A stretch of 29,755 nucleotides of DNA, taken from IMG/VR virus record IMGVR_UViG_3300048597_000652, positions 1 through 29,755 of that record. One strand, 5' to 3'. The notes beneath the pieces were generated by a model. That model searched no databases. It was given only the letters and a program-made list of their open reading frames with translations, and was not told where the DNA came from. Numbering within the stretch: position 1 is the stretch's first letter; each line of letters begins with the position of its first letter. The position numbers and the translations under genes are program-made. Source of the stretch: a virus. This document shows, one piece after another, positions 21,279 through 29,755 of the stretch.

Positions 21279-22776
21279 TGGCCTTCTCCTGTCCGGGTTT
21301 TCCCTGCGCCGAGCCGGTTTGGGTCGTGCGGCGCGGATCGATATCGAGAACAAGGCCCTTCCGGTCGATTTCAGCCAGAAATTTGCCGGTGTTGTCGACG
21401 ACCTCGCGCCAATCGCGGCCCCAAGCGCCGATGAATTCCTGAGGGCTCATCCTGCCCGCGCGCACGGCTAGAATGTCGGCCTCCAGATCCTTTTTCGGAT
21501 CGATAGGCTCGCGCGCCGGCATGACGTAATCGAAGGCGTAGCCTTCGCGCCGATCAGCCAGCAGCCCGCCCATCATGGCGCGATCAAGCCAACGGTCGAC
21601 CACGCGGTCGAGCAACATGGGCGCAAGGCAAAGCCATTGAAACTGCTCGACGAAACGGAAGAATTCGATTTTTCCGGCCCGCAGGCTGGAGTAATTCGCC
21701 TGGCGCAGGTCTCCCGTGACCTGGTCGTAGGTGAGATTCACTCCGGCGGCGAAGCGCATCAGGTTGGCGAGCAAAATCGGTTCAACCGACAGGCCGCCGG
21801 TGGGCGCGATCGATGTGATTTTTTCGCCAGGCCGGGTGTAGACCACCATGCCCGGATGCAGATCTTCGATCCGCTTGCCGTCTGCCGTGCTTTCCGATCC
21901 ATCAGCGGCGGCCAGACCCATTTTTCCGACATCGGGGGTCTCGATGCCCAGACCGTAGCACGCCTCCATGCGAGCCTTGACGGTCAACGCCTCGATGAGA
22001 TCAGCGAAGTCGCGCGATGTGAGCAGAACCGGTGCGAAAACCGTCACTCCGCGCAGCTGCCCGGGCCGTAACTGGCGAAACAGGTGACAGACGTCAGCCG
22101 CCGCCAAACGCTGGGTGCGGGCCCCTTTCGCGGTCAGACGCTCACCATCCTGATCGGCGAGCACATGGAACCCTTTTCGCCGGTTCCATTCGTCGATTTC
22201 GACGCCCAGCTTCACCCGAGGTTGCGATCCGGCGATCGAACCGGTGTCCATGCTGGCGTCGATCTGTTCGCCTTCCAGAAGCTGAAGACGCAAGCCCGGC
22301 AGTCCTTGGGCGCGTCCGGTCATTTCGGACGACGGCACGTCGATAAGCCGCGCCAGAACGTCTCCACCCTCGAACATGGCCGCCACGGCCAGCCTCTGGA
22401 GGCCTGCGAAGCTCAGCACGCCTTCCATATCGGCGAGCTTGCACCACCTGTTCCAGAGATCCTTCACCTGACGGTCGCGGCGATCAGATCCTGTGTTCCA
22501 CGCGACATGGACGCCAGTGCCGACGATGTGGCTCGACAGCACCTCGATCGTGCGGGCCGCTTCCGGTGTGTTGCGCACCAGATCATGCGCACGCGCAGAC
22601 AGTCGCGCGATCTGGGTCGACAGGCTGGCGTTTGCAGATCCGCCGCGCTGTGCCAGCGTGTTGGTCCGGAAGCTTTGCTTGGCCCCATCATAGGCACGCA
22701 AAGCGTGGAATGCGGCGGCGCGCTTCATCGCAGCCTGCGGCGCGACCAAGGCGAGGGCTTTGAGCCAGCGTGACAT
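21268..22776 (-). CDS. Portal protein, lambda family
   Basis: The 502-residue product forms the ring through which DNA enters and leaves the head. It has the lambda-type pattern: RAYDGAKQSFRTNT, ARAHDLVRNTPEAARTIEVL, SHIVGTGVHVAWN, LQRLAVAAMFEGGDVLARLI, LQLLEGEQID, CHLFRQLRPGQLRGVTVFAP and NLTYDQVTGDLRQANYSSLR. The ATG is two bases after the gpW-like stop. The C-terminal 30 residues are polar and probably disordered. Confidence 0.95.
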   Translation of the reverse strand: MSRWLKALALVAPQAAMKRAAAFHALRAYDGAKQSFRTNTLAQRGGSANASLSTQIARLSARAHDLVRNTPEAARTIEVLSSHIVGTGVHVAWNTGSDRRDRQVKDLWNRWCKLADMEGVLSFAGLQRLAVAAMFEGGDVLARLIDVPSSEMTGRAQGLPGLRLQLLEGEQIDASMDTGSIAGSQPRVKLGVEIDEWNRRKGFHVLADQDGERLTAKGARTQRLAAADVCHLFRQLRPGQLRGVTVFAPVLLTSRDFADLIEALTVKARMEACYGLGIETPDVGKMGLAAADGSESTADGKRIEDLHPGMVVYTRPGEKITSIAPTGGLSVEPILLANLMRFAAGVNLTYDQVTGDLRQANYSSLRAGKIEFFRFVEQFQWLCLAPMLLDRVVDRWLDRAMMGGLLADRREGYAFDYVMPAREPIDPKKDLEADILAVRAGRMSPQEFIGAWGRDWREVVDNTGKFLAEIDRKGLVLDIDPRRTTQTGSAQGKPGQEKANEP

Positions 22777-22778
22777 GG

Positions 22779-23069
22779 TCAGAACCGGTTATGACGTGCG
22801 ACGGAGGATCGGGCGGGCACCTGTGCTGGCGACAGCTCCGTCTCCATCAACAGAAGCGTGCGCTCCATTTCGGCCTGATCGCGGTAAGTGACCTCACGCA
22901 CCTCGCCATTCGACTCGTAGCGCACCTTGCGAGCCCCGGTCGCGATGGCGCGCTTGAGCGCGTCGATGTCAGTATGGGTGTAGGGCACAGGGTCAATCCG
23001 ATCGTAGCCATCGGCCCCTGATCGAAAGGCGGGGCCAGAACTGGAGTTGCTAACGTCTGAGCCACCCAC
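22779..23069 (-). CDS. Head-tail connector gpW-like protein
   Basis: This reading of 96 residues begins at a GTG. The conserved part is YTHTDIDALKRAIATGARKV then RYESNGEVREVTYRDQAEME, the gpW fold pattern, followed by a helical stretch and a basic tail. In lambda, gpW plugs the portal and stabilises packaged DNA. The gene sits between terminase and portal, as in lambda. It overlaps the terminase 3' end by 20 bases. No good ATG precedes the conserved part, and the first 25 residues are low-complexity, so the exact start is uncertain. Confidence 0.82.
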   Translation of the reverse strand: MGGSDVSNSSSGPAFRSGADGYDRIDPVPYTHTDIDALKRAIATGARKVRYESNGEVREVTYRDQAEMERTLLLMETELSPAQVPARSSVARHNRF

Positions 23070-25203
23070 CTTGCGGGCGACCGATCCAGCCGGACGAACG
23101 GGCTGGCGGGCGCGAGACCTCGTCGGAACCGGATGGGCTGGCCTGCGGCGCCTGCTCCGGCACGGTCAGGTCGGGCCGCGCGAACAGATCAGGCGTGGCC
23201 GGCTTTAGCGGGCGATGCGCCGCCGCAACCAGCTCGGCCCAGCGTGCGGCCGAGATCTGGCCCGCGCCCTCCTGCCAGGCGAGCGCCTTGCAGCCGACCG
23301 CGATGTCCAGCGCCTCGTTCGGACGTCCCGGCAGCTTGCGCCACTCGCGGTGGTCGCCCGGCCGCTCGAGCAGCGCGCGCTTGGCCTTGCCTTTGGCCTC
23401 CGCCTGCGGGTCGATCAGGACCTCGGCGGTGAGCTGCCTGGCGTAATCGTCGCCGATCCAGTTCGGCAGATGCAGCGTCCCGTCCGGAAACGAACCGTCT
23501 TCGCGTCGCCCTGCGACGAGGCTTTTCAGTCCCCTGTAGATCGCCGTCTTCAAGTCGAACTGGCCGATGAGGCCGAGCGGAATCATGCGCCCGCTGACGG
23601 GCCGCCCGAAAGCGTCCCGCAACTGCGCCTTGGTGAGGCGGAGCGGCGGGGCCTTGGAGCGGTTGTCACCCTTGGTGGCCGTGAGCCAGCCGCGCCCGCA
23701 AACCTTGTCGTAGAGCAGCTGCGTCTCGTTTCCGGTGTCGATGCCCCATGCGATCGGCCCGAGCTCGATGCCGGCCTCTGTCGGGTAGCTGCGGGCCCCC
23801 AACTGGTCGATGATGGCGAAATCGGCGTCGAGATCACCCGTGCGCGGGATGATCCCCGCATCCACCAGCCAACCCTGAAAGCCGGGTCCCCAGCCCCAGA
23901 CGCCCCACTCGAAGCGGTCGCCCTGGACGTCGATGAAGCCGGTCAGCGCGGCGGCCGGATAAGGCACCGTGCCCTTGCCCCAGGCGACGCGCGCGGCGCA
24001 GAGCCGCTCGTGATCGGGTGCGTCACTGGTCGGATCATAGGGTTCGCCCAGATCCTGCTGGCAGAACGTCTTCTCCTTCAGTGGGTCGCCCTTGGCGGCG
24101 CGGCCCCGCGCCAGAATGTCGCTCCAGCTCTCCATCGGCGAATAGGCCGACCAGAGCGCATAGGAAGGTTGCCAGTCGCGGCAACGACCCTCGCAGGGGT
24201 CGCAGGCCCATTTGGCCAGGTCAGCCGCCGGGAAATGCTCCGGCACAGGCGCAAGCACTGCGCCGGGCACTTCCTGCCCCGGATCATTGGAGCGGGTGGG
24301 AATCCAGACGCCGTCGGCGAGCATCCGCTCGCGCTCGACCTGATCGATGAGCGCGCCGCAGGCGACGCAGGCGAAAGTGGCGCGATGGCGCGAGATATCG
24401 GACGGGGCCTGCATATTCTCCCAGCGCAAGGTCTGGCGCTCCGCACAATGCGGGCATTCGACATAGAAGCGGCGGCGGTCGCCATCCTCATACATCTGGC
24501 TGATGCGGCAGGAGCCGGCGAGGCCGGGGGTTGAGGAGGCGAACTCCTTGGCGAGGTCGCCATAGGATTTCTGCCTCGCCCGCGCCTGGTCGATAGGCGA
24601 ACCGCGACCATCGGTGTCGAGTGGATATTCCGACACCTCATCCATGACGAGATAGCGGATGGACACCATCTGCAGCCCTTTGGAGCTGCTGGCGGTGACG
24701 ATCTGGGCGAAGCCACCCGAGAACCGCTTGAACGAGGTGGTGGAGGCCGCCTCGTCCCGGCTGTTCTCGGGACGCACGCGGTGCCTGATCTGCGGGCTCG
24801 CATCCACCGTGGGCTGCAATTTCACCCTGTTGAACTTGATGGCCTCGTCAAGCGATGGCAGCACCATCAGCATGGTGCCGGGCGCCCGGTCGACGACATA
24901 GCCGAACCAGTTGACCGGGATCTCCGATTTGCCGGTCTGCGCGCTGAATTTCAGCGTCACACGCCGGGCGGGATGATCCGGATGCAGGCAGTCCATCGGC
25001 TCGCGCAGGTACGGCGTACGTGCGGTGCTCCACGGCCCCGGATAACGCGAGCCCGATTCAGCCGAAACCTTGCGATAGCGGTCCGCCCATTCGGAGACCG
25101 TCAACTCCTGCTCGGGTTTCGCATGCAGCGCCAGCGATTCAGCCAGGATGCGCCGTCCGTTCGCGAGGCCCGGCAGAAGCTCATGAAGCTCCGCCGATGT
25201 CAT
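23050..25203 (-). CDS. terL: Terminase large subunit, GpA family
   Basis: The 717-residue packaging motor and nuclease matches the lambda GpA family. The ATPase half carries a Walker A-type SAQTGKSE (87-94) and Walker B YLVMDEV (184-190). A zinc-binding pair, CPHC (250-253) and CVAC (279-282), follows. The nuclease half has the acidic residues Asp425 in GFIDVQ and Asp489 in WGIDTG, and later LNEALDIAVG-like sequence (RPNEALDIAVGCKALAW). The C-terminal 60 residues are Pro/Ser-rich and may contact the portal. GAGG lies seven bases before the ATG. GpA-type enzymes usually cut cos sites, which suggests a phage with cohesive ends. Confidence 0.95.
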   Translation of the reverse strand: MTSAELHELLPGLANGRRILAESLALHAKPEQELTVSEWADRYRKVSAESGSRYPGPWSTARTPYLREPMDCLHPDHPARRVTLKFSAQTGKSEIPVNWFGYVVDRAPGTMLMVLPSLDEAIKFNRVKLQPTVDASPQIRHRVRPENSRDEAASTTSFKRFSGGFAQIVTASSSKGLQMVSIRYLVMDEVSEYPLDTDGRGSPIDQARARQKSYGDLAKEFASSTPGLAGSCRISQMYEDGDRRRFYVECPHCAERQTLRWENMQAPSDISRHRATFACVACGALIDQVERERMLADGVWIPTRSNDPGQEVPGAVLAPVPEHFPAADLAKWACDPCEGRCRDWQPSYALWSAYSPMESWSDILARGRAAKGDPLKEKTFCQQDLGEPYDPTSDAPDHERLCAARVAWGKGTVPYPAAALTGFIDVQGDRFEWGVWGWGPGFQGWLVDAGIIPRTGDLDADFAIIDQLGARSYPTEAGIELGPIAWGIDTGNETQLLYDKVCGRGWLTATKGDNRSKAPPLRLTKAQLRDAFGRPVSGRMIPLGLIGQFDLKTAIYRGLKSLVAGRREDGSFPDGTLHLPNWIGDDYARQLTAEVLIDPQAEAKGKAKRALLERPGDHREWRKLPGRPNEALDIAVGCKALAWQEGAGQISAARWAELVAAAHRPLKPATPDLFARPDLTVPEQAPQASPSGSDEVSRPPARSSGWIGRPQGGWLRR

Positions 25204-25212
25204 GGGCTGTCC

Positions 25213-25767
25213 TCAGCTTGGCGGCGGCTCCCTTGCAGTCAGCGCGACTTCGGACATCGCACGCGCGAATTCCTCGAAGCCGGCGCGGATCATGTTCTTC
25301 AGCAGCGGGCGCACGAGGCGGGCCTCGCCGCCAAACCGCGCCGCGATCTGCTCGGAGGCCGTGTTCACGGCCATTTCAAAGGCGGCCCGCATCTGCGTAA
25401 CCGCTTCGCGGGCCGCCTCTTGGACCTCCGCTGTGGGCGTGAGGAGGCCTTTCGCTTCGGCGAGTTGCATCTCCTTAATCTCGGCTTCGGCGGCGACCTT
25501 GCGGGCCGCGCCTTCCGCCTGCGTCGAGGAGCGTGGGCGGACACCCGGCCGCGTCAGGGCCTTAGGCGTCACATCCGCCAGCCGGATATTCTCGGCCCGG
25601 TGTCGGGCCAGAAGCTCGAAGTCGAGAAACAGGTCGCGGCCTTCGCGTTCCACCGGCAGGGCTTCGGCATGCTGCTTGAGGTAGCGCGACAAGGCCGACT
25701 TCGAAACGGCGTCGCCGCGCGCGGCGAGCATCTCGACCGCCGCCTTCAGCGTCACCCGTTCGGCCAT
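25213..25767 (-). CDS. terS: Terminase small subunit, Nu1-like
   Basis: The 184-residue product has an N-terminal winged-helix region (VTLKAAVEMLAARGDAVSKS, ALSRYLKQHAE, GRDLFLDFELLARHRAEN) like lambda gpNu1, then a helical linker (KVAAEAEIKEMQLAEAKGLL) and a C-terminal helix for contact with TerL. It would recognise the phage packaging site. Position just before TerL and length near gpNu1 agree. The start at 25767 begins MAERVTLK; no strong ribosome site is seen, and a GTG at 25842 is open in frame but would add low-quality sequence. Three 11-base repeats overlap its start. Confidence 0.85.
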   Translation of the reverse strand: MAERVTLKAAVEMLAARGDAVSKSALSRYLKQHAEALPVEREGRDLFLDFELLARHRAENIRLADVTPKALTRPGVRPRSSTQAEGAARKVAAEAEIKEMQLAEAKGLLTPTAEVQEAAREAVTQMRAAFEMAVNTASEQIAARFGGEARLVRPLLKNMIRAGFEEFARAMSEVALTAREPPPS

Positions 25768-25806
25768 CGTTGCACCACCGTTGCGCCGGGGCGAAATCGT
25801 TGCACC
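25766..25806 (-). repeat. Three 11-base repeats at the TerS start: candidate packaging or operator site
   Basis: On the + strand ATCGTTGCACC stands at 25766-25776 and 25796-25806, and a variant ACCGTTGCGCC at 25777-25787. All three have the same orientation. They lie across and just upstream of the TerS start codon. In lambda, the Nu1-binding R sites lie near the start of the small terminase gene, so a cosB-like role is plausible but unproven. Confidence 0.5.
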
Positions 25807-25899
25807 CGATTTCGGATCGGCCACTAGCGAAAACCCGGGCACTTTTAGAGGCGCAGGGGGGTGGGGGGCCGGGAAGGACCCGCGCGACCTGCCGCGACC

Positions 25900-26490
25900 T
25901 CAGGCCCGCCCGCGTGGGGCGACGCCGGCGAGAATGGCGTAAAGCTCTTTGCCTACATCGCCCGGCAGGTGCTGTGCGGCGGTGGAGTAGAACGCCTGCG
26001 CGCTCGCACCCGAGACCATTTCCTTGGGAATGAAGATGCCTGACCGCACCTTCTCGATCTTTCCGCCCCAGCGACCACCTTCGAGGTTGCGATAAACATG
26101 GCCGTCACGGCGCTTGACCGCATAACGGTTAGGCTTGCGGCCCGACTTGATGAACGCTCCGGGGAATATCTGGCGCTGGCCGCCCGGGGCCGCGCTCACG
26201 CCGCCCCTGACCTCACGCGCCCCTAAATACTTGAGCGATATGTCACCGCCCCGTGATTTCAGCACATAGGACAGGTCGCGGTAGTTGGCCCGCCTTGTCT
26301 TCACCGCGCGGTTGATGACGCCGGGCTTGAGTCCTGTCTGCTGGACGAGCGCGCGCTTGACCTGCGTGCGGACCTTGTCGCCCGTGCGATTGAGGCCGCG
26401 CCCGATGGCGTGAGGGGCCTGGTCGCCGGCGGCCATGAAGGCGTTGGCGAGACGGTCGAACGCGCCCGCATCAATCGTCAGCGTGATCAT
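25900..26490 (-). CDS. Minor tail protein Z-like
   Basis: The 196-residue product has the pattern of lambda gpZ (Pfam Minor_tail_Z): TIDAGAFDRLANAFMAAGDQ, APHAIGRGLNRTGDKVRTQV, KRALVQQTGLKPGVINRAVK, and a C-terminal RSGIFIPKEMVSG segment. gpZ acts in tail completion in lambda. Here it is coded before the terminase, away from the other tail genes. The ATG overlaps the small upstream gene by four bases (ATGA), which fixes the start; the ribosome site itself is weak. About 130 bases without a gene separate it from TerS. Confidence 0.8.
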   Translation of the reverse strand: MITLTIDAGAFDRLANAFMAAGDQAPHAIGRGLNRTGDKVRTQVKRALVQQTGLKPGVINRAVKTRRANYRDLSYVLKSRGGDISLKYLGAREVRGGVSAAPGGQRQIFPGAFIKSGRKPNRYAVKRRDGHVYRNLEGGRWGGKIEKVRSGIFIPKEMVSGASAQAFYSTAAQHLPGDVGKELYAILAGVAPRGRA

Positions 26491-26678
26491 CTTGGCCGGC
26501 CCGACGTCAGCCGAAGCCGCGCGGTCATCTGCGCCAGACGCCGAGCGGCGGATGCTGCATCCTCTGTCATGGTGCGTGTCACATAGGCCGCCCCCTGTCT
26601 TGCAGTGGCCAGATCGCCCCTCGCCAATGCGGAGGCCGACTTGCCGATGACGGCACGGCGTTCGGCGCAGCGGCACAT
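26487..26678 (-). CDS. Small Cys-containing phage protein, first late gene
   Basis: The 63-residue product starts MCRCAERRAVIGKSASALAR and is basic and helical, with Cys2 and Cys4 as its only Cys residues. I do not know a function. The gene is supported by GGAG eight bases before the ATG and a four-base overlap (ATGA) with the gpZ-like gene. It is the first gene after the leader terminator. Small MCxC proteins of this kind are familiar before packaging genes in other proteobacterial prophages, a recollection, not a search result. Confidence 0.65.
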   Translation of the reverse strand: MCRCAERRAVIGKSASALARGDLATARQGAAYVTRTMTEDAASAARRLAQMTARLRLTSGRPR

Positions 26679-26696
26679 GGGGTGATCTCCAACGAA

Positions 26697-26725
26697 AAAC
26701 GCCCCGGCGGTGAGCCGAGGCGTTT
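26697..26725 (-). terminator. Intrinsic terminator in the leader of the late operon
   Basis: On the - strand arms 26725-26714 and 26708-26697 pair over 12 positions (one G-U) around a five-base loop. The final three T of the stem and two more form a T5 run (26699-26695). The ribosome site of the first late gene begins only a few bases later. It could simply end the transcript of the unknown gene upstream, or act as an attenuator for the late operon. Confidence 0.75.
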
Positions 26726-26748
26726 CCAGACCTGATTTAGCGTGTTGA

Positions 26749-26790
26749 GGCTATGCGTCAACGGGCTTTCCCGTCAACTATTATTTTTTA
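26749..26790 (-). promoter_or_regulatory. Candidate late promoter with A/T-rich upstream element
   Basis: On the - strand an A/T-rich block (26790-26779) is followed directly by TTGACG (26777-26772), a near-consensus -35, then 17 bases and ATAGCC (26754-26749), a weak -10. A second GTTGACG copy lies 15 bases on, between the two elements, and the region can fold into a 9-bp hairpin with two G-U pairs. Repeated motifs between -35 and -10 could bind an activator or antiterminator. The -35 is convincing, the -10 is not. Confidence 0.45.
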
Positions 26791-26795
26791 GGCAA

Positions 26796-27551
26796 TCAAA
26801 TCAAAGGGTTGGCATTGCCTGAATTCTGGCGTCCAAGGCCGGGCAGAACGATCCTCGCCGGTTTTTCCCATGGCGACTCGGGCGCGAGCGGCCCCGTGGC
26901 CTCATGTTTGGCGAGCGCGCCGGCGAGATCCCCCGCCAGCCTCGCCAGGCACAGACGCCAAGCGGCATAGACCGCCCTTGCGTGGATGACTTCCTCGAGC
27001 GCGTCGTCATCCTTCCGCTTCCTCGCCCGCCCGCGACGATCCATCGGCAGATGGTCGAGCGCCATCCTGCCCGCTTTCGTCGCCCAACCCTCGCACCAGT
27101 CGGGTCGCGAGCCCGCCTTGGCGTGGATGATCAGCAGCGCCACGGCTCCCACCTGCTCCAGCCTGACGCCGAAGGCCGCGACCCTTCCATTCGGGCAGAC
27201 CGGACGCAGCAGCCAGTCTCCCGCGACCTTCTCGATGATGCGCCCGGCGCCATCCGCCGCGGCGCGGTCCCAGAGCGTCACCTCGCCGCCTCGCCGCCAC
27301 TCGAACCAGATCTCCGGCAGCGAGAGCACCGCGTCATGGATGATCGCCGCGTCATCCGGCACGCGGATCCCGGCGGGCCGCGCCGCGAAGCTCGAATTGT
27401 CGATCTTGGTGCCGAGGCTGGCATATTGGCCAAGACCGCCGGCCGGCGAAACCGCCGGGCCTCTGGGCGTCATCATCGCCATGGACCGATCGACACATTG
27501 CGTCCTGTAGGCCCATTCCAGCAGCTGCTCGATATCAAGACTTTCCTTCAT
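26796..27551 (-). CDS. Phage protein of unknown function
   Basis: I do not recognise this 251-residue protein. It starts KESLDIEQLLEWAYRTQCVD and has no membrane segment. The middle holds ARPAGIRVPDDAAIIHDAVL, then LPEIWFEWRRGGEVTLWDRA; the second half has a basic patch (MDRRGRARKRKDD) and a helical HARAVYAAWRLCLARLAGDL. The start at 27551 fits AAGGA nine bases upstream; an ATG at 27560 is in frame but too close to that site. An open frame further upstream runs into the repeat array and is not coding. It lies between the helicase gene and the late operon, so it may be an early or middle gene, perhaps DNA-related because of the basic patch. That role is a guess. Confidence 0.7.
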   Translation of the reverse strand: MKESLDIEQLLEWAYRTQCVDRSMAMMTPRGPAVSPAGGLGQYASLGTKIDNSSFAARPAGIRVPDDAAIIHDAVLSLPEIWFEWRRGGEVTLWDRAAADGAGRIIEKVAGDWLLRPVCPNGRVAAFGVRLEQVGAVALLIIHAKAGSRPDWCEGWATKAGRMALDHLPMDRRGRARKRKDDDALEEVIHARAVYAAWRLCLARLAGDLAGALAKHEATGPLAPESPWEKPARIVLPGLGRQNSGNANPLI

Positions 27552-27582
27552 GGCGGTCATTCCTTCTTCGAAAAGACGTTTA

Positions 27583-27919: not shown

Positions 27920-29755
27920 TCAGCGTCCATCTTTCTGCGTCCTGTAGGGGTTGCGGGGCCCGTCCTCGGGCGGGGCGGGCACGGAATGCAGCTCGATGTC
28001 GAGATAGTAGTTGCGCCCCTGAATCTCGGTCTTGTCGAAGCGCTCCGAGGCGATGTCGCCCATCTTCTTCTGGCTGCGCGGCGAGCGGGCGTTGGCGTGG
28101 CTCCAGTTCTGGTAGGCCTCGTAGAGCTCGCTCGCGCCGACGCGCCGCCCGATGGCGGGGCGGATGCACATGCGCAGGAACTCGCCCACCGGGTCATTGG
28201 CTTCGGCATAGGCCTGCGTCGCCGCCCTCACGCTCTCGGCGATGAAGAGCCGCTCGCCATTGTCGAGCCAGTCGAGCACGCCCTCGGCGAGCCAGGCGAG
28301 GATGCCCGGCCCCTCCTCGCGCACGAACTCGGTGACAATCTCCTCGAATTCGCGCCGCCGCTCCTCCGGGATCGTCTGGTCCCAGTGGACGAGCAGGAGG
28401 CGGCGCACAGTGCCATAGTCCGATCCGTCGAGGCTGGGCTTCTTGTTGCCCGACATATGGGCCTTGGCAGTGTTCTGGAACTCGATATAGCCCTTGAACA
28501 GGGCCCGCGCCGTGATGCCCTCGCCGCCCGTCAGGCGCTTGACGAGATCATCCTGCAAAGGCGCGTCGCCCTTGACCTCGAGGATGCGCACGAAGCGCTT
28601 GAACAGGAGGCGGATGATGTCGGGCGAGGCCGAGCCTGCCCCCCTGTCGCCCTGCCCGATGATCGATTCGCGCGGCAGGCCGACGCCGAGCTGGTCGCCG
28701 ATGACGCGGAACAGCACCTCAAGGAACACCGATTTGCCGTTCGCGCCATGGCCGTAATGGAACATCAGATATTGCAGCGGCACCCCGGTGAGGCCGAGCC
28801 CCGCGAACATTTGCACGGTGCGCCGCTTTTCGGCGTCGGGCAGCATCTCGGCGATGAAGCCGCGCCATTTCGGCGCGGGCGCGAGAATGCCCTCCCATGG
28901 CGTCGGGATGAAGGCGGTGAGCCTGTCGGCCCGCTCATGGCCCGGCGTCGCCAGAGCCATGGAGCGGAAGCGCGGCTCCTGCGGGTCGCTCTCCTCATCC
29001 TCGATGCGGGCGAAGCGCAGCGTCGCGTTCGGGCAGGCGAGGCGCATCCGGTCGGCATTGAAGGCGGTGTGGGGCTGGCGGGCGCGGGCGTCGGCGAAGG
29101 CGAACATCGATTCCACCCGGCCGGCATTCTTGGAGGTGACGGCATGGTTGAGCCGGCGCGCCACGCGCTTTCCCAGCGCCTCGCGGGCCTTCAGAGCGCG
29201 CTTGAGCAGAGCCCGTTCCGCTTTAGGGATGTCTTCCGGAGCAAAGCCTTCCAGCCCCTCAGCCGCCTTGATATCGCGCACCTCTTGCGGCGTGTGGCCG
29301 AGAAACCCGGCCTCAAGCGCAATGCGCCCGCCCAGCCGGCTGGCCAGGGTCTGCGCCAGCGCAGGCCCGTTCGGAACGTCCCAATGCGTGCCGGTCCAGA
29401 CCACGCGGTCGCCGCCGGAGACACCCGCCGCCGCGATGACGCAGTAATCGCCGCCGAAATGCCGCAGGAAGCGCTCGGCATTGTCGGTGTCGGAGGCATC
29501 GAGCGCGGCGCAGGACGCCACCACATCCATGTCGACGCCGTCCAACCCCATATCGGAAGGCCGGTCGCCATCATCCTCGATGAGGCCGCCTCCTAGATCC
29601 GGTTGCCCAAGATCGGGCTGCACAGGATCTGGCGGTCCCGTGTCGGTGTGCATGGCCGGGGGCGCGTCGGCGCCGAGCGCCTCGTCGACCATGGCGGCGA
29701 TCCGCGCATGCGGGCCTTGCGCTTCCGGGGCTGCGGGGATCACATCAGAGGTCAT
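27920..29755 (-). CDS. Phage replicative helicase, D5/SF3 type (primase C-terminal family)
   Basis: The 611-residue product resembles the D5-type ATPases of phage P4-like and poxviral primase-helicases. About 1-80 is acidic and Pro-rich, about 85-320 looks like the D5 N-terminal region (NAERFLRHFGGD at the front, ERADRLTAFIPTPWEGI later), and the SF3 core has Walker A GHGANGKS (335-342), RFVRILEVKGD and the SGNKKP motif (435-440). The C-terminus (from about 515) is a winged-helix-like tail (GEFLRMCIRPAIGRRVGASE). It should unwind DNA at the phage origin. No primase active-site domain is visible in this frame, so a partner primase may be coded to the right. The ATG is at the window edge; a longer protein is possible. 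Confidence 0.88.
   Translation of the reverse strand: MTSDVIPAAPEAQGPHARIAAMVDEALGADAPPAMHTDTGPPDPVQPDLGQPDLGGGLIEDDGDRPSDMGLDGVDMDVVASCAALDASDTDNAERFLRHFGGDYCVIAAAGVSGGDRVVWTGTHWDVPNGPALAQTLASRLGGRIALEAGFLGHTPQEVRDIKAAEGLEGFAPEDIPKAERALLKRALKAREALGKRVARRLNHAVTSKNAGRVESMFAFADARARQPHTAFNADRMRLACPNATLRFARIEDEESDPQEPRFRSMALATPGHERADRLTAFIPTPWEGILAPAPKWRGFIAEMLPDAEKRRTVQMFAGLGLTGVPLQYLMFHYGHGANGKSVFLEVLFRVIGDQLGVGLPRESIIGQGDRGAGSASPDIIRLLFKRFVRILEVKGDAPLQDDLVKRLTGGEGITARALFKGYIEFQNTAKAHMSGNKKPSLDGSDYGTVRRLLLVHWDQTIPEERRREFEEIVTEFVREEGPGILAWLAEGVLDWLDNGERLFIAESVRAATQAYAEANDPVGEFLRMCIRPAIGRRVGASELYEAYQNWSHANARSPRSQKKMGDIASERFDKTEIQGRNYYLDIELHSVPAPPEDGPRNPYRTQKDGR

Follow-up and report, generated by a model that had tools for sequence, protein, structure and literature searches.

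The linear viral contig IMGVR_UViG_3300048597_000652 (IMG/VR; 29,755 nucleotides (nt), analyzed over its full length and called the window below) carries on its minus strand a primase gene, a gene of the protein family phrog_9306, an intergenic leader of 117 nt and the late genes. The latter comprise an open reading frame (ORF) of 63 amino acids (aa) and the genes for neck1, the small and large terminase subunits, portal, capsid/protease, sheath and tape measure, and they are co-directional downstream of the leader over about 26 kb of the window (Table 1). The phrog_9306 gene at 27560-26796 occupies the place of Q in phage lambda, between the primase gene and the late promoter. On comparative and structural grounds we consider it likely that the locus is a late switch of the lambda pR'-tR' type, in which the uncharacterised Q-like family phrog_9306 provides the antiterminator.

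Within the leader the motif GTTGACG occurs in two exact copies (26772-26778 and 26756-26762, minus strand), 16 nt apart from start to start, and the A/T-rich stretch CTAAAAAATAATA lies directly upstream of copy 1. The original prediction for this DNA had described a -35 element with an A/T-rich upstream element, in agreement with what we find, and GTTGACG repeats between -35 and -10. The latter point needs a correction: both copies are exact, but copy 1 is the -35 itself and only copy 2 lies in between. After the first TTGACG, the weak -10 candidates CATAGC (26755-26750, spacer 16) and TAGCCT (26753-26748, spacer 18) follow. This combination of a good -35 and a weak -10 is predicted to start transcription at about 26743, close to the start near 26742 proposed before. 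If the spacer is 18 nt and TAGCCT the -10, the start shifts 2-3 nt further on and the proposed pause element CACGCT comes correspondingly earlier relative to it. Downstream follows a hairpin with arms at 26714-26725 and 26697-26708, a loop of 5 nt and a T-run at 26699-26695, the energy of which was reached by 0 of 200 shuffled sequences; the strong intrinsic terminator previously noted ahead of the first late gene is therefore borne out. GGAG and the ATG (26678) of the first late ORF stand no more than about 20 nt past the T-run, so that any upstream transcript of this gene must cross the hairpin. The built-in scans detected neither element: the terminator was missed probably because the T-run was partly counted into the stem, and no sigma70 promoter was found at the leader. 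An Rfam search of the window gave no match.

Relatives were gathered via the terminase, a phrog_9306 alignment, named phages and plasmid-like prophages, and host genomes. Single-protein scans for phrog_9306 relatives found none, and the route in was the terminase followed by the alignment. The collection holds about 60 relatives, mostly prophages of Hyphomicrobiales, and 57 non-redundant leaders were used for the leader statistics. Among the genomes sampled around a Methylobacterium host, 36 of 397 from its order, 8 of 385 from its class, 6 of 398 from its phylum and none of 14 controls contained members of phrog_9306, and two isolated and sequenced phages, Aurantimonas phage AmM-1 and Rhizobium phage RR1-A, belong to the family. 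Where the flanks were long enough, a primase gene lies upstream of phrog_9306 in 14 of 22 loci, and 15 of 18 have neck or terminase genes downstream. The -35 of many members overlaps the stop codon of the phrog_9306 gene. Three loci (L030, L036 and L007) have an extra ORF after phrog_9306 and the promoter-terminator pair stays in front of the late operon, which argues that the association is not a mere effect of the 3' end of phrog_9306. One genome contains two phrog_9306 copies (locus L044, genome G327), the second with two in-frame TAA stops and probably part of a decaying prophage.

The leaders of these relatives share the double element. TTGAC-N10-14-TTGR was found in 32 of 57 leaders, compared to a mean of 0.7 and a maximum of 5 in shuffled sequences, and with the looser second element TTKR the count rises to 36. 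Of the 48 leaders that bear a TTGAC, these 36 have the second element; outside the leaders, only 42 of the 551 TTGACs in these loci do. The distance from first to second element is 18 nt in 18 leaders, 19 in nine, 17 in eight and 16 in one, the window itself. In the window alone the double motif has 4 matches with 0.95 expected, and we dropped this count as strong evidence; the significance of the repeat comes from the leaders of the relatives. Hairpins with a T-run and a folding energy of -14 kcal/mol or lower are present in 45 of 57 leaders (18% of shuffles), the T-run mostly lying 75-92 nt past the -35. At the predicted start, ACNNT with its A 33-35 nt past the start of the -35 occurs in 16 of 36 leaders (background 2.3%), an A-rich stretch follows, and an A 23 nt past the second element is conserved at 92%. 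Across dozens of diverged phages, the sequences preserve the pR'-tR' logic put forward earlier: a late promoter, a conserved element embedded in it and a terminator before the first late gene.

The conserved A also bears on where the promoter lies. Copy 2 (26761-26756) could be the -35, with GCTAAATC (26741-26734) as -10, a start at about 26727 and copy 1 as an upstream binding site. This arrangement is an exact match, and the only one in the window, to the Caulobacter housekeeping promoter consensus TTGaCgS-N10-14-GCtANAWC, and the position of the A conserved at 92% would suit it. However, the second element of the relatives is often TTTGG rather than TTGAC, the TTGAC being that of copy 1, and the distance to TAAAAA would be 14-16 nt, with an A-tract that lacks the final T of a -10. 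We regard this assignment as possible but doubtful. It is a variant of the antitermination explanation, with which its probability overlaps, and it changes the geometry while the logic of the switch stays the same.

A hint at the function of phrog_9306, the strongest that gene order offers, comes from its exchange with a known class of antiterminators. In three related loci (L009, L013 and L016) the slot encodes a protein with a NusG domain that matches the PHROGs transcription antiterminator, and no phrog_9306 homologue was found there. Four further loci found via the NusG-type proteins (L124, L125, L126 and L127) have the same NusG-type gene before the terminase, and L013 and L127 show a hairpin with a T-rich tail ahead of the first late gene. 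The NusG N-terminal domain and the KOW motif, found in the slot of L009, L013 and L016, were not found in phrog_9306 proteins. The NusG-type locus L009 has a double TTGAC as well, which we excluded from the pattern because L124 and L125, close relatives of this locus, are without the first copy. Behind the NusG-type gene of these three loci lies a long conserved leader (L009:878-1147, L124:3142-3440, L125:5290-5590; including CAGCGCCGACATCCTCGAAAGCAAACCGGAAGCCATTCCGGTCCGAGTGCGCCAGCTTAGAAAATCC) that resembles a structured RNA; the NusG-type antiterminator may load there. In three other loci with related terminases (L004, L005 and L011) no phrog_9306 or NusG-type protein could be recognised ahead of the terminase, and the slot may hold a further type of late regulator.

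Structure comparison offers a further lead. We used L070, a short member without the beta insertion that the window protein carries (AlphaFold model with a predicted local distance difference test (pLDDT) of 70.6 and a predicted template modelling score (pTM) of 0.63), for a search in which Foldseek proposed 105 chains from 350,542 and VIA-align ranked them. The top three PDB alignments were all to Q21, the Q protein of phage 21: 6p18 (Z 7.5, 120 aligned residues, root mean square deviation (rmsd) 9.1), 6p1a (Z 6.4, 111 aligned, rmsd 6.3) and 6jnx (Z 5.9, 123 aligned, rmsd 9.3). At lower Z came the unrelated chain 8otw and the sigma-factor/polymerase-complex entries 8z6g and 7f0r, which agree with the Q21 match because helices H3-H6 of Q21 have been likened to sigma region 4 (PMC6606751). 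Three Q21 entries at the top of a search that is blind to gene position are difficult to explain by chance. According to the original prediction the window lacks a Q-like gene. Against this stand the candidate at 27560-26796, which is in the Q position and conserved together with the leader, the NusG-type antiterminator that relatives put in the same slot, and the best alignment of the L070 model with phage 21 Q.

Several observations weigh against phrog_9306 as a Q-like antiterminator. The alignments to Q21 stay under Z 8, with an rmsd of 6-9 Å, and come from a model of moderate confidence; because of the low Z and high rmsd we treat the match as a lead and not as a proof of homology. Q21 was absent from Foldseek's listed matches at E up to 10, and the model of the window protein itself (pLDDT 80.9, pTM 0.73) gave no convincing match in PDB or BFVD, most of its rows at Z 2-3 spanning only the inserted beta region. 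By sequence, phrog_9306 profiles (49 and 56 members) compared with PDB sequences gave no antiterminator up to E 10, and searches of Pfam, NCBIfam and PHROGs linked phrog_9306 to none of their antiterminator families. In the leaders, about a third lack the exact double element directly behind the phrog_9306 gene, the competing promoter formed by the second TTGACG and GCTAAATC is good in the window, and the -10 is weak in many members.

Such a weak -10, as found at activator-dependent promoters, would also suit a plain initiation activator. In that case phrog_9306 would bind beside the -10, and the hairpin would be the end of the early operon or a stabiliser of the 5' end of the late mRNA; under the alternative promoter assignment it would begin only a few nt from the 5' end of the RNA. 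Yet most members have a T-run-bearing hairpin downstream of the promoter, which is superfluous for a plain activator, a terminator-like hairpin precedes the first late gene in the NusG-type loci L013 and L127 too, and the best structural matches of L070 are to an antiterminator. Hence, we think it unlikely that phrog_9306 acts in this way. Less probable still is that the promoter-terminator pair serves to produce a small regulatory RNA and that the late genes depend on a promoter in some other place. The predicted RNA of about 45-50 nt resembles a shortened lambda 6S RNA and the leader is conserved, but what is kept are the promoter elements and the terminator as a class, and the hairpin sequences vary between members. 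Moreover, the scans see no sigma70-like site near the late genes on this strand, although the same scans miss the proposed promoter.

Under the antitermination model, polymerase would start at about 26743, roughly 50 nt downstream of the phrog_9306 gene, and without help would halt at the T-run (26699-26695) and release a useless RNA of roughly 45-50 nt. Upon induction the replication genes and phrog_9306 would be expressed. The phrog_9306 protein would then bind the promoter-spacer element, presumably the second TTGAC, and a sigma-dependent pause near the start may hold the polymerase during binding. The protein would join the polymerase, probably at the RNA exit channel in the nozzle-like manner of Q21, and the polymerase should then cross both this terminator and those further on as it transcribes the co-directional late genes. 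Comparison of the sequences establishes the position of the gene, the conserved element in the promoter spacer, the conserved predicted terminator and the replacement by NusG-type antiterminators. Well into the late region, at 1131-1100 on the minus strand, there is another strong terminator-like hairpin (13 pairs, 12 of them G-C, with T6). It sits before the ORF 987-1 and could be a second terminator for the antiterminated polymerase to cross.

The proposed system shares features with several known ones. With lambda Q and pR'-tR' it has operon logic and gene order in common, and the second TTGAC could serve as the -35-like sequence of lambda. Unlike in lambda, the predicted leader RNA is only about 45-50 nt long, the 6S RNA of lambda being far longer (about 194 nt), and neither sequence nor fold similarity to lambda Q was detected. 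The Q systems described so far depend on a binding element placed between -35 and -10 together with a -10-like sigma-pause sequence, and lambda requires a -35-like sequence as well (PMC6606751); the pause-inducing element of lambda lies between +1 and +6 and pausing occurs at about 16 nt (PMC4604602). The leaders appear to fit this pattern, with TTGAC as -35, TTGAC or TTTGG before the -10, CACNNT near the start in many members and a T-run about 45-50 nt on. Phage 21 Q with 21PR'-tR' (PMC6606751) offers a close parallel in the repeats as candidate binding element within the promoter, the -10-like candidate pause element in the initial transcribed region and the intrinsic terminator ahead of the late genes, and it gives the best fold match of the L070 model. 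In contrast, the repeats of phage 21 have the motif TGAGCA, no sequence similarity is detectable, and many phrog_9306 proteins are longer than 21 Q and have the inserted beta region.

AlpA of Pseudomonas aeruginosa (PMC9371919, PMC7969949) likewise has its binding element between -35 and -10 and a terminator downstream, and its promoter has the -10-like CACGAT at -1 to +5 (PMC9371919), comparable to CACNNT. However, AlpA was found neither by sequence nor among the listed structure matches of phrog_9306. GafZ of the Caulobacter gene transfer agent (PMC11150451) controls an alphaproteobacterial phage-like late cluster by antitermination and has its binding element between -35 and -10; it is reported to resemble none of the known antiterminators. 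It differs in that it works with GafY and integration host factor (IHF) and in that its terminator follows the first gene. Finally, the NusG paralogues of the RfaH/LoaP type (phrog_6386) take this slot ahead of the late operon of related phages but are an unrelated family, and the leaders that separate the NusG-type stop codon from the first late gene are longer in those loci that were read. None of lambda Q, 82 Q and AlpA turned up in the fold match lists; a relation may exist all the same. The phrog_9306 protein is not in any described Q family by sequence, and the families of lambda, 21 and 82 Q show no significant sequence similarity among themselves (PMC9371919). Overall, we lean towards the view that phrog_9306 forms a Q class of its own that is widespread in Hyphomicrobiales phages, a remote fold relative of 21 Q with its own binding element, a tandem of -35/-10 and -35-like/-10-like elements, and exchangeability with NusG-type antiterminators at one locus.

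Table 1. Predicted features of the late switch and its surroundings (positions of the window).
Feature	Position	Strand	Evidence
D5-type DNA primase/helicase gene, replication module upstream of switch	27920..29755 (reaches contig end)	-	phrog_1156 E 1e-100; Pfam D5_N
Proposed Q-like antiterminator gene, 254 aa, phrog_9306	26796..27560	-	phrog_9306 E 2e-22; position conserved; L070 model vs Q21
Intergenic leader, 117 nt	26679-26795	-	
TTGACG copy 1, promoter -35	26772..26777	-	direct repeat; first TTGAC kept in relatives
TTGACG copy 2, in spacer just ahead of -10; candidate antiterminator-binding and/or -35-like element	26756..26761	-	direct repeat; TTGR of relatives 16-19 nt past first
-10 region, CATAGC or TAGCCT	26748..26755	-	weak
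CACGCT, proposed -10-like sigma pause element, about -1 to +5	26739..26744	-	ACNNT in relatives; AlpA CACGAT likewise placed
Intrinsic terminator, tR'-like; 12-13 bp stem, 5-nt loop, T5	26691..26726	-	-22.4 kcal/mol, z -5.07
First late ORF, 63 aa, MCRCAERR...	26487..26678	-	homologues likewise placed in L007, L008, L015, L016, L017
Neck1/tail-completion gene; start overlaps preceding stop (ATGA)	25900..26490	-	phrog_27 E 1e-22
Terminase small subunit	25213..25842	-	phrog_57 E 1e-12
Terminase large subunit, gpA type	23050..25203	-	phrog_15 E 9e-183; Pfam GpA_ATPase + GpA_nuclease

The first late ORF (26678-26487) belongs to no PHROGs family (best E 0.19). Within the portal gene, ARAGORN called a tRNA-Trp of odd length (22337-22435, minus strand) that is probably spurious.

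The logic of a Q-type switch is known; new here would be a Q-like protein family and its likely DNA site. No description of the phrog_9306 family was found in the open-access literature, subscription papers lying outside the search. Few processive antiterminators are known, and the viruses concerned form a large group that infects soil and plant-associated bacteria. If our interpretation is true, the family, seen in 36 of the 397 genomes sampled from one order, would explain how late genes are turned on in many alphaproteobacterial prophages. Its exchange for NusG-type proteins at one locus allows two solutions to antitermination to be compared in otherwise related phages, and the isolated members, the Aurantimonas and Rhizobium phages named above, make the system testable. 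In conclusion, the findings would assign a function to the hitherto unexplained family phrog_9306, which could in these hosts serve as a compact tool for making read-through conditional.
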